This document shows, piece after piece, positions 13,255 to 63,372 of a stretch of 64,000 nucleotides of DNA. Below the pieces are notes generated by a model. That model made no database searches. It was not told where the DNA came from and saw nothing but the letters and a program-made list of their open reading frames with translations. Each line of letters begins with the position of its first letter. Position 1 is the first letter of the stretch. The stretch lies in NCBI RefSeq assembly GCF_038396675.1, contig NC_088933.1, forward strand, positions 34,521,001 to 34,585,000. The letters are read 5' to 3'. The position numbers and the translations under genes are program-made. The stretch is from Hydra vulgaris (taxonomy: Eukaryota > Cnidaria > Hydrozoa > Anthoathecata > Hydridae).

Positions 13255-14977
13255 CACTACCGTGCAAAAGTCTCCGCTCATGTGTAATATTTGCAATGAA
13301 CAGTAAATGCAATACATTTTAGGATGATTTTAAATATATAAAAAGAATAAAATGTTAACATAAAAAGTTGATGAGGCCAAATCATAATTTTGCATACTTT
13401 TTCCTTTTCTTTTTGTTTCAAATAATTTTGTTTACCTTTGTTTTGTTGAGTTCTGCTGCTAAAAACATGGAAGAAGTTTTTCTATATTAATAACCTTTTT
13501 CACGTAAAATACATATAAAGTTCTTCAGTATTCTTTATTAAATTTAAAACTGCACAAAAGTTTTGATCAAAATATTTTTTGTAAGCTAAGGTTTGACAGT
13601 AGCATGATACTTTCCGGTATGGTAAGGATGTTTTCAGTAATTTTAATTGGTTGCTTTTAATAGACTTATGTTTATATTTATACTTGAAAATGGCATTAGT
13701 GTGCGCATTTAATGTCTTGAATTTAATAAAGAATTTGAGAAATGGTGAAAGTAAAGAAAGAATATTGTGAAGAACTTCGTGGCAAAATATGTATTTTACG
13801 TGAAGAAGGTTATTCATATAGAAAAATTGCTTCCAGGTTAAAAATATCCGAATCAGGTGTGAGATATGCTCTACAACGATTGCATGATATTGGTTCCAAC
13901 AGTGACAGATCACGTTCTGGAAGACAAAGAGTTACATCACGGCAAGAAGATACGTTTATTGTTGTGTCCAGCAAAAGAAATAGAAAAATTCCAGCCACAA
14001 TTTTAACAGCAGAACTCAACAAAACAAGGGTAAAGCCAGTATCAACTGATACTGTAAAAAGAAGACTAAGATCAGTCAACTTAATTGGACGCGTTGCTGC
14101 ACGTAAACCTTTGTTGAGGGCAGTAAATAAGAAGAAAAGATTGGAATGGGCAAAAATGCATAAAAATTGGGGATTAGAAGATTGGAAGAAAGTTCTATGG
14201 ACAGACGAGAGTAGGTTCGAACTTTTTGGTACCCGACGTCGCGTGCATGTTAGGCGTTTACCTAATGAAAGAGTGCTTCCTCAATGTATACAAAGTACTG
14301 TAAAACATGGAGGTGGTAATATTATGCTTTGGGGATGTTTTGGCAATGGGTTAACTGGAGATTTAGTTAAAATCACATCTACCATGGATAAACACATGTA
14401 CCATAATATTTTGGTTAAGCACGCGATTCCATCTGGTATTCGTATAATTGGGAAAGGATTCATCATGCAGCAGGACAACGATCCAAAACATGCATCTGGA
14501 TTATGCAAAAATTATTTGAAACTAAAAGAAAGGGGAAAAGTTTGCAAAATTATGACTTGGCCTCCTCAATCACCAGATCTATCATCCATCGAAAAGTTGT
14601 GGGATGAACTGGATCGGAAGATCAGAGAAGCAGGTGAAACATCTTTTATTAATCAGCAAATGCTATGGGAACGTTTGCAAAAAGCTTGGAATGAGATAAC
14701 AGCGGAAACCATGAATAAATTATTAGCCCGAATGCCAAGATTATGTGCTGCTGTTATACGCTCCAAGGGGTCTCATATTGATGAAAATAAAATTTAACAT
14801 TTACAACTTTGTATATTAACATTTTATTGATTTTATATATTTAAAATCATCCTAAAATGTATTGTATTTACTGTCTAATTCATTGTTTAATAAACAATTA
14901 AAAATAAACGCAATTTTCTTGCAAACTTTTGTTACTTTATTGAAATATTACAAATGAGCGGAGACTTTTGCACGGTA

Positions 14978-49836: not shown

Positions 49837-49870
49837 CGACCCACAGTGGGCCAGTAGGTGGACAAAATGG
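49837..49870 (+). repeat. Left Transib end: TSD, heptamer, spacer, nonamer-like block
   Basis: CGACC target copy, then CACAGTG (49842-49848), a 13-bp spacer starting GGCCAG, then ACAAAATGG (49862-49870). Read as GACAAAATG the spacer is 12 bp. Six of nine bases match the RSS nonamer ACAAAAACC. Confidence 0.85.
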
Positions 49871-50371
49871 GAAAAATTTTAGTTGTCTAATCTTGAAAAC
49901 CTATTTAATTTTATTATCTACATATATTAGGAGAAATCTATTGATAATTTATTTATATTAAATCCCTTAGTTACCAGGACTCTAAGCATTTGAATATTGA
50001 GATAAAATTAAAAAAAAAAAAATTATAAATAAGTAATTAACGGTGACATCAACGTTGTGTTATATTTCAATTACATCTACGTTTTTGAAACAAAAAATTA
50101 GTACATGTTATTCTAGAGTATTTAGAGATAAGAAAAACCAATGTGTGAAATAAATTTGTTATAGCATGTTATCTCAGTTATACTTTGAAAATCACAGATT
50201 AAAAAAAAAAATTTCTTAAGAAACTTATTTTTTGCCGCACAATAACTAATAATTACCACAATTTGCCATGTGTTGTCTTATATTTATTTGAGCTATATGA
50301 TGCTTCAATCGAGTTTTAATTGATTGCTCGTCCCCTTAAATCCCCGTTCAGATTTATGTATGTTTTAACTT

Positions 50372-50660
50372 GGTTGCTATGGTACTAAATTTTGCATAGC
50401 AACAACTCATTTTTACATTAACGTTGTTTTAACAGTATTTTACTTGCGCTAAATACACAATATTGGGGGTATGTATTAAAATGAGATTCAGAATTCTTAT
50501 GAGGTTAACTTTTTTTGGTTACTATGGATACCTTACTTTGCATAACATAGCAACAACATATTTTCGGTAGTTGTTAGTAATTTAATTACTAACACTGACA
50601 GTAATTTAATTACTTTTAATTTTAATTACTAACACTTGTAGTAACTTAATTACTAACAAG
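50372..50660 (+). repeat. Left subterminal repeats of the Transib element
   Basis: Two units about 145 bp apart, each opening with GGTTGCTATGG...GCATAGCAACAAC (itself an imperfect palindrome), followed by related A+T-rich sequence. They are inverted with respect to those at 52876-53150. A short TTAATTACTAACA-rich run ends the block. Confidence 0.75.
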
Positions 50661-50739
50661 TATTAGTAGTCCAGGCGGCATATATATTATAACATTTTAC
50701 TTTTAAATACAAAATACTTGTTACAATAATTATTTAGAT

Positions 50740-52730
50740 ATGGTTTTGTTAAACTTAGACATTCATAATTTTCTCCAAAAAAACAATCTTAGTATTTCAA
50801 AACAAAATATTACTGAAGATATATTAAAATTTATTCAGCCAAAATTTGCTGATTTTAAAGACGTTGATTTTAGACATGCTGTTCAACGATTTGTTTACTT
50901 GTATAAAAAAAAGTGGAAATCTGCAAACTATACTGTGAAAAATTTTGAAAAGAAGTTTGTGAACTGGCTTAATGAATATTTAATTGTCAGAAAAAAAGAC
51001 AATGAACCAACTGCAAGTAGACGTGGTCGAAAACCAGTTGCATTTGATAATAGTTCTAATAAAACTAAAAAACGGCGTGTATCTTGTTTAATTGAATCTC
51101 ATTCATCCAATGAATTATTTTTTGTTGCTAATAAAAAATTTAGAGATGAATCTGTTGTTATTGCTGCCAAGAATGTTTTAAATATATCAAATACAGATAA
51201 AGCAACTAAATATTCAGCAGACGAAGCACTGGCTTTAATAATTGATGCAAGTCTGACAAAAGCTTCCTATCAATTGATTAGAAGCGGAGCCTTGGAGAAA
51301 GAATATAACATCTACCCCGCTTACAATGATGTCAGAGATGCAAAATTGAAATGTTATCCTGCAAACATAACAGTGGAGGACTATTCAGCTTCAGTTCCTT
51401 TAAAAGATTTAATGACTCATACTTTGCAAAGAATCTGTACAGTTCAGGAACCTGTGCTAAGGCACTTGATATTGAACGACAAAGCAATAAAAACAATGAC
51501 ACTAACGTGTAAGGCTGGTTTTGATGGTGCTACTGGCCAAAGCATTTATAAACAAGTTTTATCAGAACCCGACATTAACAGAGATTTAAAGCGTGAAGAA
51601 TCATTGTTTATTACTTGTCTTGTCCCATTGGATTTGACTGGATTTAACAACAGCAACGAAAAGGTGCCTATTTGGAGAAATCAAAAGTCGTCCTCCACAG
51701 CCTATTGTAGACCCATAAGATTTGCATACAAAATGGAATCCAAGGAATCTGTGATTGAAGAAGATCAGTACATTAAAAGTGAGATAGAAAGCTTGGGTAT
51801 GATTTTGTTAGAGGTTTGCGGATCTTCTATTGAAGTGAATTGTATTATTGAACTTACAATGATTGATGGGAAGGTTCAAACAAAATTATCTGAAAAAAAT
51901 AACTCATACCAATGCTGTTCAGTGTGTGGTGTCTCTCCAAAAAATATGAATAGTCTTGATATCCTTAATATAGATTATACTAACAGAGAGTTCAAATATG
52001 GTCTTTCCAGTCTTCATGCATGGATTCGATTTTTTGAGATGTTTTGCACATTGCATATAAAAAAGAAACAAGAAAGTGGCAAGCAAGATCTAAAGAACAC
52101 AAAGAAAAGGCATCTGTAGCTAAACAAAAGATTCAGACTGATTTTATGAACAAAATGGGACTTGTTGTTGATTTCCCTATAAGTGGTGGTTCTGGAACAA
52201 GTAATGATGGCAATACCTCAAGGCGTGCTTTTGCAGCATATGAACAAACAGCTGAAATTCTGGGTATTGACCAAAACCTTATATTCAGATTTTACATTAT
52301 CTTGGTAACGCTCTCTTCAGGATATGAAATAGACTGCTTAAAGTTCAAGGATTATTGTTTTGACACTTTTAGACTATATGTGTCCCTTTATCCATGGTAT
52401 TACATGGCTCAATCAGTTCACAAAGTATTGATACATGGACATGACATAATTAAAAGCCTTACATTACCCATCGGACTTATGTCAGAGGAAGCTCAAGAGG
52501 CTAGAAATAAAGACTTTAAATCTTATCGCGAAAATTTTAGCCGAAAAACATCCAGAAAAGCAACAAATACTGATCTTATCAATAGACTCCTAGTTTCCAG
52601 TGATCCTGTTATTTCATCATTGCGTAAATCAACATCACACCAAACAAATCATAAAGCATTTCCTTCAGATGTTTTCAATTACTTAAACAATCTTCAAACG
52701 ATATTATTGTTTTATAATTTTTTGATGTAA
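50740..52730 (+). pseudogene. Transib/RAG1-like transposase, one apparent frameshift
   Basis: Cut-and-paste DDE transposase of the superfamily from which RAG1 is thought to derive. Two overlapping frames (459 codons from ATG 50740; 228 codons ending at 52730) join near 52041-52046, where adding one T to a TTTT run restores a single frame of about 663 codons. In order: an N-terminal basic region with RRGRKP (AT-hook-like), GFDGATGQSIYKQ with Asp262, SSTAYCRPIRF, TMIDGKV with Asp376, CSVC at 393-396, GLSSLHAWIRFFE, NDGNTSRRAF, YPWYYMAQSVHKVLIH with His126/His131 of the second frame, and SEEAQEARNK with Glu152. These line up with RAG1 D600, D708, C727/C730, H937/H942 and E962 by my alignment. 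The shift may be a real lesion or an assembly error. Confidence 0.88.
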
Positions 52731-52875
52731 TTTAAAATTGATAACGTTTTCTTGCACTATTTTTTGCTTTTATTATTCCTAAAACATTATTTACCTAAAT
52801 ACTCAATTTTTATTCAATATAGGTGGGTCAAAAATCCGATAAGATATTCAAATATCAATTTACCACTTTGTAATT

Positions 52876-53150
52876 AAGGAAAGTATCCGGCAACTAAGCA
52901 ATATAAGTATCCATAACAACTAAATTTAAAAAATTATCACTTTTGTAAGAAGTGTGATCTCATATTGGTACTCATGCCAAATTTAGTGAATATAGCACTA
53001 ATAAAATATCTGCAGATAACAAAAGTAGGTTGTTGCTAAGCAAAATAAAGGTATCCATAGCAACGAAATAAAAAAATATTACCTTCATAAAAAGCGCAGA
53101 CATCATATTAGTACTCATACTAATTTTAGTGAATATAGCTCAAATATTAA
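52876..53150 (-). repeat. Right subterminal repeats of the Transib element
   Basis: Two tandem units about 155 bp apart, each containing AAGCAA...AAGTATCCATA(A/G)CAAC and later TTTAGTGAATATAGC. They are inverted relative to the left set, so the element carries paired inverted subterminal repeats. Confidence 0.8.
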
Positions 53151-53159
53151 ATTAGTTAT

Positions 53160-53202
53160 GAATTTTGTCCAGTAAAAGTGCATTCTGGCCCACTGTGCGA
53201 CC
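53160..53202 (-). repeat. Right Transib end: nonamer-like block, longer spacer, heptamer, TSD
   Basis: On the minus strand: CACAGTG (53197-53191), a 22-bp spacer starting GGCCAG, then ACAAAATTC (53168-53160), seven of nine matching the RSS nonamer. With the alternative register GACAAAATT the spacer is 21. CGACC follows at 53198-53202. Confidence 0.85.
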
Positions 53203-59945: not shown

Positions 59946-60302
59946 TTTTAAAATTTTTAGGCATGCTTGAAATTTTATAGACTGCACAGTGAATTGTTTC
60001 ATACAATCTAGCTGGACTAAAATATTTTGTTCATGAACTTCATTGTTTTAGTTGTGAAAGGTTGAAATAAATAATATTTTGCTATTTTATTGAATAATTA
60101 CCTTGGTTTTAATAACTTAGAAGTTTTTTTTGCGAAGGATAGGGGGAAAACCCCTCGCCTACAACCCCCCATTCCCCCTTATTGCAAAAACCACTGTTAT
60201 TATAAAAAAATTTAGTAAAAAAATATATTTATGAATCAAGGGTACATAATATTGTACAATAAACTTTATATTTAGTTATCAGAAAAATCGTCGTTTATAC
60301 CC
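59946..60302. other. Intergenic with G/C-rich transposon scrap
   Basis: GGGGGAAAACCCCTCGCC near 60142 and a C-rich patch at 60168 resemble a worn DNA-transposon end. A CACAGTG at 59984 has no visible partner. Confidence 0.4.
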
Positions 60303-62100
60303 ACCAAACACTCATCATATCACAACTATCAGAATACTTGTCGTTTATATCCATCAAATACTCATCACTTGAATCTTCAGATGACTCATCTTTTGATTCA
60401 TCGGACAAGTTACAATTTCCTATTCTTGGAGCTGGAACAATCAAATTCAAAACCTCTACTAACAAGTTTTTGCAGTCAGTTCTCTAAGTGAGTTGATAAC
60501 AGGGTCAGATGTTATTAAGAGCATATTTAGCAAATCCATATTTGTAGAAATACGTGACTTTTTCCTAGTTTGATGTTCTTGAAATCTCCTACAATCTTTA
60601 TTTCGTGCTTCTTGAGATTTTTCTGAGAGCTGGCCAATCGGAAAAATACACGACTTCATAACTTCCGTGCTATGCGTTAAAGTTGTATGCACTGACACAG
60701 ACATGTAATACCACAAATATAAATGCAAATATGAAGCCCTTGTTTCAGAACAAGGCTTTTCAAATTTAACGCAATCAATGCCATGGCCAGGAGATAGAGT
60801 TCTTATTAAAATACTAAATTTTTTAATTAATTCAACGTCTAATCCTGTAATCTCTCCGCTCTTTTCTGGATTTAAAAAAAACCTGCGAGCTGTGTAACCA
60901 TCGTGTGTACTGCTATAATGAGGTTTCAGTCAATCCACAATAAGTCCCATTTTTTTCAAAACTTTTGCCTAGTCTCTTCCGAACGTTTTCTGATACGACA
61001 TTTATTCTCATTGCCTCTAACTTGCCACTATTTAATGTCTAAACGGTAGCTAATGTCTTGCAAACATTCAAAAGTACGTATCCAAGCATGCAAGTTAGAC
61101 AGACCAAAATTGTAATTTTCTTTTTTATTAACCATACCTTTTAATTCACCATTCATCATTTTTGGAGTTGCATCACAAATATAACATTTTTGTGTAGACG
61201 CGTATCGGTAAAAGCATTGCATACTTTTCCGCCTGTCATTGTAAGTAACAGATTGTGTTTCACAATAAGTTTAAATTCACCAACAATACACAATGTTGGA
61301 AAAAGTTCAGATATTTCTTTTAAAACTTTGTCAGTTTCTATTACAGCAAGTTCCTTTTTCTTTTGAAAATATGAATTTAATGGGTTGCCAATAAAGTATT
61401 GACGATGGCTGAGGATTTTGCCAAATAATAGTATTAGAGTCTCAATCTCAACGAGACAAACGCAAACACAAACAGAAACTTATTATTAGCATCGGAGTTC
61501 TCAAATCTTTGTTTATAGGTATTGTGGCCACAACTTCCTTCACATCCCCATTTGCTTATTAATGTAAGCAACAAGCTAGAGGATGCATTTTTGGGAAATT
61601 GACTTAGCGTTTCAATTAAACGTTCAGTTGTTTTATTCAATATGGCTTGAAGTTTATTTTCACCTCGCGTTTCTTAGATAGAAATAAATTCTTCTGGAGG
61701 GTAACACAACTTTTTGGATTTACATAAATTATAGTAAGACGGAAACACTTCATGCCCTGCTTTCATTGACCACTTTCTTGTTTTTTTATAAGAGTGACTA
61801 GTACACTTGGAATCTACATAATAAGCTAGTGCCCCATCGCTACTCAACTGCCTGCTACCACAAATAACATAAGTAGATTTTCTTTGCTCTAAGGTTTCTG
61901 TACTTTTTCTAAAAGAAGTAGCTACGTTTCTTTGACCCGACAAATGATGTTCTATTTCAGCAGCTGTTGTTAATTCATTGGCACTCTGCGATTGCAATAA
62001 GACTTCAACTCTACGTCTTTTTGGTTTTTAAAGATGAGTTATCAAAGTTTTTTCTTTGGCTGACTTTCTTGAGGCCAACTTCCTTTAGATTATGTGGAAG
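60303..62100 (-). pseudogene. Second Transib/RAG1-like transposase, heavily decayed
   Basis: From 62030 leftward: ANELTTAAEIEHHLSGQRNV, YYVDSKCTSHSYKKTRKWS, CKSKKLCYPPEEF, then ISKWGCEGSCGHNTYKQRFE (first Asp changed to Glu), TMTGGKVCNAFTD (relatives TMIDGKV: second Asp changed to Gly), CYICDATPKMMN (zinc Cys pair kept), FGLSNLHAWIRTFECLQDIS, HDGYTARRFF, YYMSVSVHTTLTH (both zinc His kept), PIGQLSEKSQEARNK (Glu kept), and an acidic C-terminal tail (DESKDESSEDSSDEY). Many stops and shifts. It is diverged from the copy at 50740, so a different Transib family. No termini were found. Confidence 0.82.
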
Positions 62101-62376: not shown

Positions 62377-62837
62377 GGGGAGACCGGGGTTAGTTAGCCG
62401 CAGGGGTAAGTTGAAGAACTGCGTTTATCTTTAGAGCCTTTCATCAGAAAATGACAAAAACTACACAAACACTTCCTTATTGACCATTTCACCATTTACT
62501 GTAGTATTGTCAGGATTCGCGCACGCGCATGGGAAATATTGAGATTTATGCGTTTTTTGGACAAAAACGTAAAAATTTGCGCCAACTTACCCCGTTTTCC
62601 GGGCCCTCAAAAAAAATTTGCGCTAACTTACCCTGTGGTGGGGTAAGTTGGCGCAAATTTTTTTTTTTGAGGGCCCGGAAAGGCCCCAAGAATTTTTTTT
62701 TGTAAATGAATGCAAATTTTATAAGTTACCCTAATCAATACTCTTTAAGACTACACTTTAATAATTTTTAAAAAATGTACTGTTAGGGCTACCGAGTTCA
62801 TCGAATAAAAACCGAGCCAACTAGCCCCGGTCTCTTC
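62377..62837. mobile_element. Pogo-like MITE with internal palindrome
   Basis: 461 bp flanked by TA (62375-62376, 62838-62839). The left end GGGGAGACCGGGGTTAGTTA pairs with the complement of the right end, GAAGAGACCGGGGCTAGTTG. Near its middle, arms at about 62597-62633 and 62641-62680 (CCGGGCCCTC...AACTTACCC) form a long hairpin with a 7-bp loop. No coding. Confidence 0.82.
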
Positions 62838-63372
62838 TACACTTGGTCTGAAAAAAGTTTAATAAAAATGAGGCAGACGCGGGCAGCCAAATTTTTATAT
62901 TTAGACGCCTTATTGTTGTGTTATAATATATAAAAAAATCAACCTGGATATATTTGGATAAAATTAGTTACACGCTTTGAAAATTAAAAAACAAAAAAAA
63001 AATTGCAATTTTGTTTTTTTAAATCTACAGAATATCATTAAGCCAATTATTTTAAATAAGTTTTCGATAAAATACAAAGTACATACCTTCTAATGTAAAG
63101 TTCATCACAGCAGAGTTAATTATTATTCACAATAAATTTGTTATACGTTATTAGTTATACCAAAATTGCAGCTATTTTTTTTTTACAAAAATATGTTTAT
63201 CAATTATTATAGTGACACTTGAGCACTAATGGTTTAACACTTAAAAACGCGTGCACTAATTAATATTTTGAATTTTTCTCTAGGGAGTATTCAGTATTAT
63301 CATTGGAATATTTACTAATTAATTCCTTGAATTACGTTTGCCCTGCTAGATAGTATGAGTCGATTCTCTGCA
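62838..63372. other. Intergenic, no gene seen
   Basis: A+T-rich with T homopolymers only. Confidence 0.5.

Follow-up and report, generated by a model that had tools for sequence, protein, structure and literature searches.

How the 12/23 rule came about bears on how adaptive immunity originated, and the systems closest to the element described here are V(D)J signals, RAG-like transposons and Transib elements. HzTransib and RAG both cleave at CAC through DDE residues and leave hairpins on the flanking DNA, and the V(D)J consensus nonamer is ACAAAAACC. The V(D)J consensus heptamer is given as CACAGTG in PMC8289069, according to which ProtoRAG of amphioxus needs its 27/31 end asymmetry. Ends of the 12/23 (+/-1) type are listed, after Kapitonov and Jurka 2005, for Transib5 of D. 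melanogaster and for Transib2, N1, N2, and N3 of A. gambiae (PMC8355894). PMC9435367 reports asymmetric ends for the whole of Transib Subgroup I and for part of Subgroup II. The same paper includes Transib-7 and Transib-9 of Hydra vulgaris, discusses Transib ends and an equivalent of the nonamer-binding domain (NBD), and reports 13-bp and 10-bp end elements with gaps of 4 and 13 bp for AanRAGL of Aureococcus anophagefferens. Because 12/23-like or otherwise asymmetric ends were reported before, in Transibs (PMC8355894; PMC9435367) and in ProtoRAG (PMC8289069), the kind of element described here is already known. It is a Transib-superfamily transposon with a short and a long spacer, located in 64,000 nucleotides of Hydra vulgaris contig NC_088933.1 (positions 34,521,001 to 34,585,000; the window). 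Transibs with 12/23-like ends, Hydra Transibs, and an NBD-like domain have all been published, and the Hydra element is an unusually clean case. The view in an initial annotation of this DNA that Transib ends are seldom clearly asymmetric is not supported by the five families listed in PMC8355894 or by the asymmetry in both subgroups in PMC9435367.

The element and its ends were placed as follows.

49842..53197, + strand: whole Transib element, 3,356 bp, with 13-bp inverted ends and 5-bp duplications; its boundaries repeat in other genome copies
49837..49841, + strand: left target site duplication CGACC, read directly
49842..49854, + strand: left 13-bp end CACAGTGGGCCAG, heptamer at 49842-49848
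49859..49868, + strand: left A-rich block TGGACAAAAT, ACAAAA separated from the heptamer by 13 bp (short, 12-type spacer)
53162..53171, - strand: right A-rich block TGGACAAAAT, ACAAAA separated from the heptamer by 22 bp (long, 23-type spacer)
53185..53197, - strand: right 13-bp end CACAGTGGGCCAG, heptamer at 53191-53197
53198..53202, + strand: right target site duplication CGACC, read directly

The initial annotation had reported the exact consensus heptamer at both ends, an A-rich block at distances differing by 9 bp, and perfect CGACC duplications. All three were confirmed, with identical 13-bp ends and ACAAAAT at 13 bp from the heptamer on the left and 22 bp on the right. Read directly, the left junction is CGACC followed by CACAGTGGGCCAGTAGGTGGACAAAATGGG, and the reverse-complemented right end is CACAGTGGGCCAGAATGCACTTTTACTGGACAAAATTC, followed by CGACC. 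Both ends start with a CAC heptamer (CACAGTG), as is usual in the Transib superfamily. The exact 13-mer occurred at two places in the window, which are the element ends, and three other matches had three mismatches. The word GGACAAAAT was found four times against 1.05 expected, with two of the four at the element ends. Short motifs like CCATAGCAAC / GTTGCTATGG were also observed, repeated in both subterminal parts (50359-50565 and 52900-53072) in inverted orientation, and may serve as additional binding sites or as regulatory elements.

The 10-mer occupies bp 18-27 from the left end and bp 27-36 from the right end, so that the gaps between the 13-bp and 10-bp parts are 4 and 13 bp, respectively. 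This end arithmetic is the same as in AanRAGL, which differs in carrying RAG1L and RAG2L and in its end letters. Transib5 and the A. gambiae Transibs likewise combine a heptamer with an A-rich nonamer-like block at unequal spacers near 12 and 23. The Hydra element is distinguished from them by its cnidarian host, its exact CACAGTG, and measurement over several families of one genome. ProtoRAG also has a heptamer-like tip, followed at unequal distances (27/31) by another conserved element, but it carries two genes and this other element, GCCATCTTG, is not A-rich. Transib-7 and Transib-9 (PMC9435367) share host genus and superfamily with the window's family, here called family A, which could be one of them.

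Copies of family A were searched for in the assembly that contains the window (911.5 Mb, 15 contigs), where 1,976 first-look candidates were reduced to 40 scored ones and the 30 best-scoring loci were fetched. Exact search recovered both ends in 27 of the 30, all 27 with one short and one long spacer. In 25 of these, TGGACAAAAT was unaltered at bp 18 and bp 27; the other two (L007 and L008) had base changes in an A-rich block with the spacing kept. The 5-bp duplications were identical in 23 of 27 copies and tended toward CAnTG, as tallied in contig orientation and not in element orientation. Mean pairwise divergence was 0.94% (range 0.69-1.28%, 435 pairs), and family A is a recent burst of amplification.

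Diverged Transib families of the same genome showed a similar layout. Family B is represented by the annotated Hydra vulgaris protein P0002, which matches genome copies at 96-99% and is 60% identical to family A copies. The 96-99% matches by themselves point to Hydra as the host, probably H. vulgaris or a near relative. In 3/3 copies of family B, 13 bp separated the heptamer from ACAAAACCT at the short end; the long end could be located in 2/3 copies and had a 24-bp spacer, and the duplications read CGCTG and CATAG. Family C (C9) had spacers of 13/24 and the duplication CGCCC. Family G (P0007-like) had a short spacer of 12 bp in the two of three copies where it was found and long spacers of 22, 22, and 21 bp; its duplication was CATTT in one copy and had one mismatch in another. 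A2, which is close to A, had 13/22 in 2/2 copies with a matching duplication in one of them, and J, close to C, had spacers of 13/24 in L055, whose duplication carries a single mismatch. Single ends were recovered for E (short, 13 bp), F (short, 13 bp), I (short, 12 bp), K (long, 22 bp), and M (long, 21 bp, counted by eye). Wherever transposase sequence could be placed, the short end lay 5' of it and the long end 3'. Since the diverged families B, C, and G also have the heptamer, an A-rich block, and spacers of unequal length, these features are no chance property of a single copy. The window itself holds a second, decayed relative.

59985..60929, - strand: second, decayed Transib (W2), 3' end and transposase remnant

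The 3' end of W2 at 59985 reads CACAGTG, 24 bp, ACTAAAAT. Its transposase remnant (60459-60929) shares 49% identity with P0001 across 147 aa, and a heptamer scan of the window did not find the other end.

The Hydra ends share with V(D)J signals an identical heptamer, the ACAAAA core, and the presence of short and long spacers. The nonamer ACAAAAACC is matched only in part, by ACAAAATGG and ACAAAATTC at 6/9 and 7/9 letters, respectively. V(D)J signals are exactly 12/23, whereas the Hydra families are 13/22 (A), 13/24 (B and C), and 12/22 (G) when counted to ACAAAA. An exact 12/23 is obtained only if the blocks of B and C are read one base earlier, as GACAAAA.

In a genome as AT-rich as this one (GC of the window about 0.25-0.32) short A-rich words are common, and CACAGTG next to such a word could be misread as a signal. 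That the ends arose by chance in this way is nevertheless practically negligible as an explanation. A scan of the genome for CACAGTG, 8-20 bp, and TGGACAAA yielded 1,668 matches (823 forward, 845 reverse), while the reversed pattern used as control yielded 7 (4 and 3). Between bp 14 and 50 the two ends of the window's element share a longest common word of 10 letters, which was equalled in 13 of 5000 dinucleotide shuffles, and the common words of families B and C were equalled in 5 and 1 of 5000. The matching duplications in family A point the same way, and copy number together with duplications refutes chance for the family A ends.

The gene content was placed as follows.

50740..52119, + strand: transposase, N-terminal 459-aa open frame (HzTransib 6pqn_A, E 4.3e-38)
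51022..51192, + strand: NBD-like segment, residues 95-151, begins GRKP
51523-51525 (GFDGA) and 51865-51867 (MIDGK), + strand: D codons of the N-terminal frame
52044..52730, + strand: transposase, C-terminal frame (HzTransib 6pqn_A, E 1.7e-58)
52497-52499 (SEEAQEA), + strand: E codon of the C-terminal frame

The window copy is frameshifted, with the C-terminal frame out of frame with the N-terminal one; other genome copies are open, and a frame of at least 640 aa with all three DDE motifs was present in 9 of the 30 fetched loci. The GFDGA, MIDGK, and EEAQE motifs stand at places aligned with the catalytic residues of HzTransib, given as D126, D225, and E436 in PMC6941560. The initial assignment to Transib was thus borne out by the match to HzTransib, the DDE motifs, the 5-bp duplication, and the CAC ends. 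Pfam named no transposase family for the window's transposase pieces, and PF12940 RAG1 matched 8 of 20 aligned relatives. The transposase is homologous to the Transib/RAG1 core, and a RAG-like transposon of the RAG1L-RAG2L or ProtoRAG type would be a further candidate. This identity is very improbable, since RAG1L is a much more distant match than HzTransib (E 2e-11 vs 2.9e-186) and no RAG2-like second gene was found, the only listed open frames of at least 60 aa wholly inside the element being the two transposase pieces. Closeness to HzTransib, which is listed beside Subgroup II proteins in PMC9435367, is only a hint that family A may belong to Subgroup II; the subgroups are distinguished by their alpha11-alpha12 region and kind of C-terminal tail. 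No relative was found in scans of viral contigs and of genome contigs outside the Hydra genome, as expected for an animal element.

The element is real and RSS-like (recombination signal sequence-like) in architecture; an RSS-like function and a 12/23 pairing rule would be extrapolations from the sequence. It is very likely a recently amplified cut-and-paste DNA transposon of the Transib superfamily in Hydra, whose ends of unequal spacer would be paired in a RAG-like way. In such a mechanism, a transposase dimer would cut at CAC and the N-terminal GRP/NBD-like domain would grip the A-rich block. Spacers differing by about one helical turn (9-11 bp) would let the synaptic complex distinguish the two ends and pair one short with one long end, as RAG does with 12- and 23-signals. 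The first 100 of the 1,668 pattern matches, all on contig C1, had spacers of 9 (4), 10 (46), 18 (1), 19 (44), and 20 bp (5), and none of 8 or 11-17 bp; the long ends of B and C, with a gap of 21 bp, lie outside the range of the pattern. Among adjacent facing pairs within 6 kb in these 100 matches, 32 of 33 were short/long and the remaining one was a 316-bp palindrome.

An ordinary Transib without any pairing rule, in which the A-rich block is a mere subterminal binding site, the ends are bound independently, and the offset is an accident of lineage, is a credible alternative that we hold possible rather than probable. It is favoured by the existence of symmetric as well as asymmetric ends among Subgroup II Transibs (PMC9435367) and by the variation of the spacer difference (9, 10, and 11 bp), while the recurrence of the short-5'/long-3' layout in A, B, C, and G, and also in E, F, I, J, K, M, and W2, speaks against it. 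Structures with equal spacers, which also favour it, exist. The initial annotation had regarded equal spacers as a sign against RSS-like ends; none occurred in the 27 family A copies, but insertion H and the palindrome have them. The Transib-like insertion H (L051, L052, L060, L061, and L062) is symmetric: in three of the five loci its two ends could be recovered, each with a 23-bp spacer, and its duplication had one mismatch in two of these three and two in the third. The flank is common to all five loci, so H is a single insertion carried inside a larger repeat, which reduces its weight for the alternative. The near-perfect 316-bp palindrome has two short (12/12-type) ends (L050, G000 C1:26877590-26877905). 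Its flanks, AGATC and GATCT, are palindromic and there is no 5-bp duplication, so that its origin may lie in an inverted duplication and not in 12/12 transposition.

These two structures weigh against RAG-like pairing, as do several further observations. In the decayed copy D, one stretch of which holds eight stops, the short end has a 13-bp spacer and an altered block, ATAAAACCT, and the spacer of the long end is just 15 bp. The common word of the family G ends was not above chance (equalled in 2439 of 5000 shuffles), and the first 100 pattern matches are mostly A and A2 and thus not independent. A sequence profile did not find a RAG1 NBD in the N-terminal part of the transposase. When that part was folded alone and compared with Foldseek, the matches listed included no RAG1 NBD and consisted of two unrelated ones with E above 8. 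Comparing the ends of collected copies, as the initial annotation had proposed, showed uniform short/long geometry; at about 0.9% divergence, this agreement shows descent and not constraint, and the comparison is no test of conservation. Within-family conservation was accordingly rejected as evidence for end signals, the family A copies being too young.

With RAG-like pairing retained as the working interpretation, the more specific proposition that Transibs of cnidarians, which lack RAG2, already follow a functional 12/23-like pairing rule by means of an NBD reading the ACAAAA block seems unlikely. If true, a 12/23-like rule would be a property of transposons that predates both RAG2 and the immune system of vertebrates. 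The chains in the solved structures of Helicoverpa zea HzTransib (PDB 6pqn and others) can be aligned with the Hydra protein from its residue 155 onward and have no counterpart of the preceding N-terminal part with its GRP motif, so that the Transib with solved structures is without this segment in those chains. A young family with several open copies, CACAGTG tips, and ACAAAA at two distances offers a system for end pairing without RAG2, and the sister families (13/24 and 12/22) and the one 23/23 insertion are natural variants for end pairing and nonamer recognition.

A Transib-like protein, P0010, is filed under a Rickettsiales bacterium metagenome assembly and is probably contamination by host DNA. 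Elsewhere in the window, an open 352-aa frame at 13739-14797 resembles a Tc1-type transposase by eye. A repeat at 62380-62840 with inverted GAGACCGGGGTTAGTTAGCC-like ends, also seen by eye, is possibly a small non-autonomous element.
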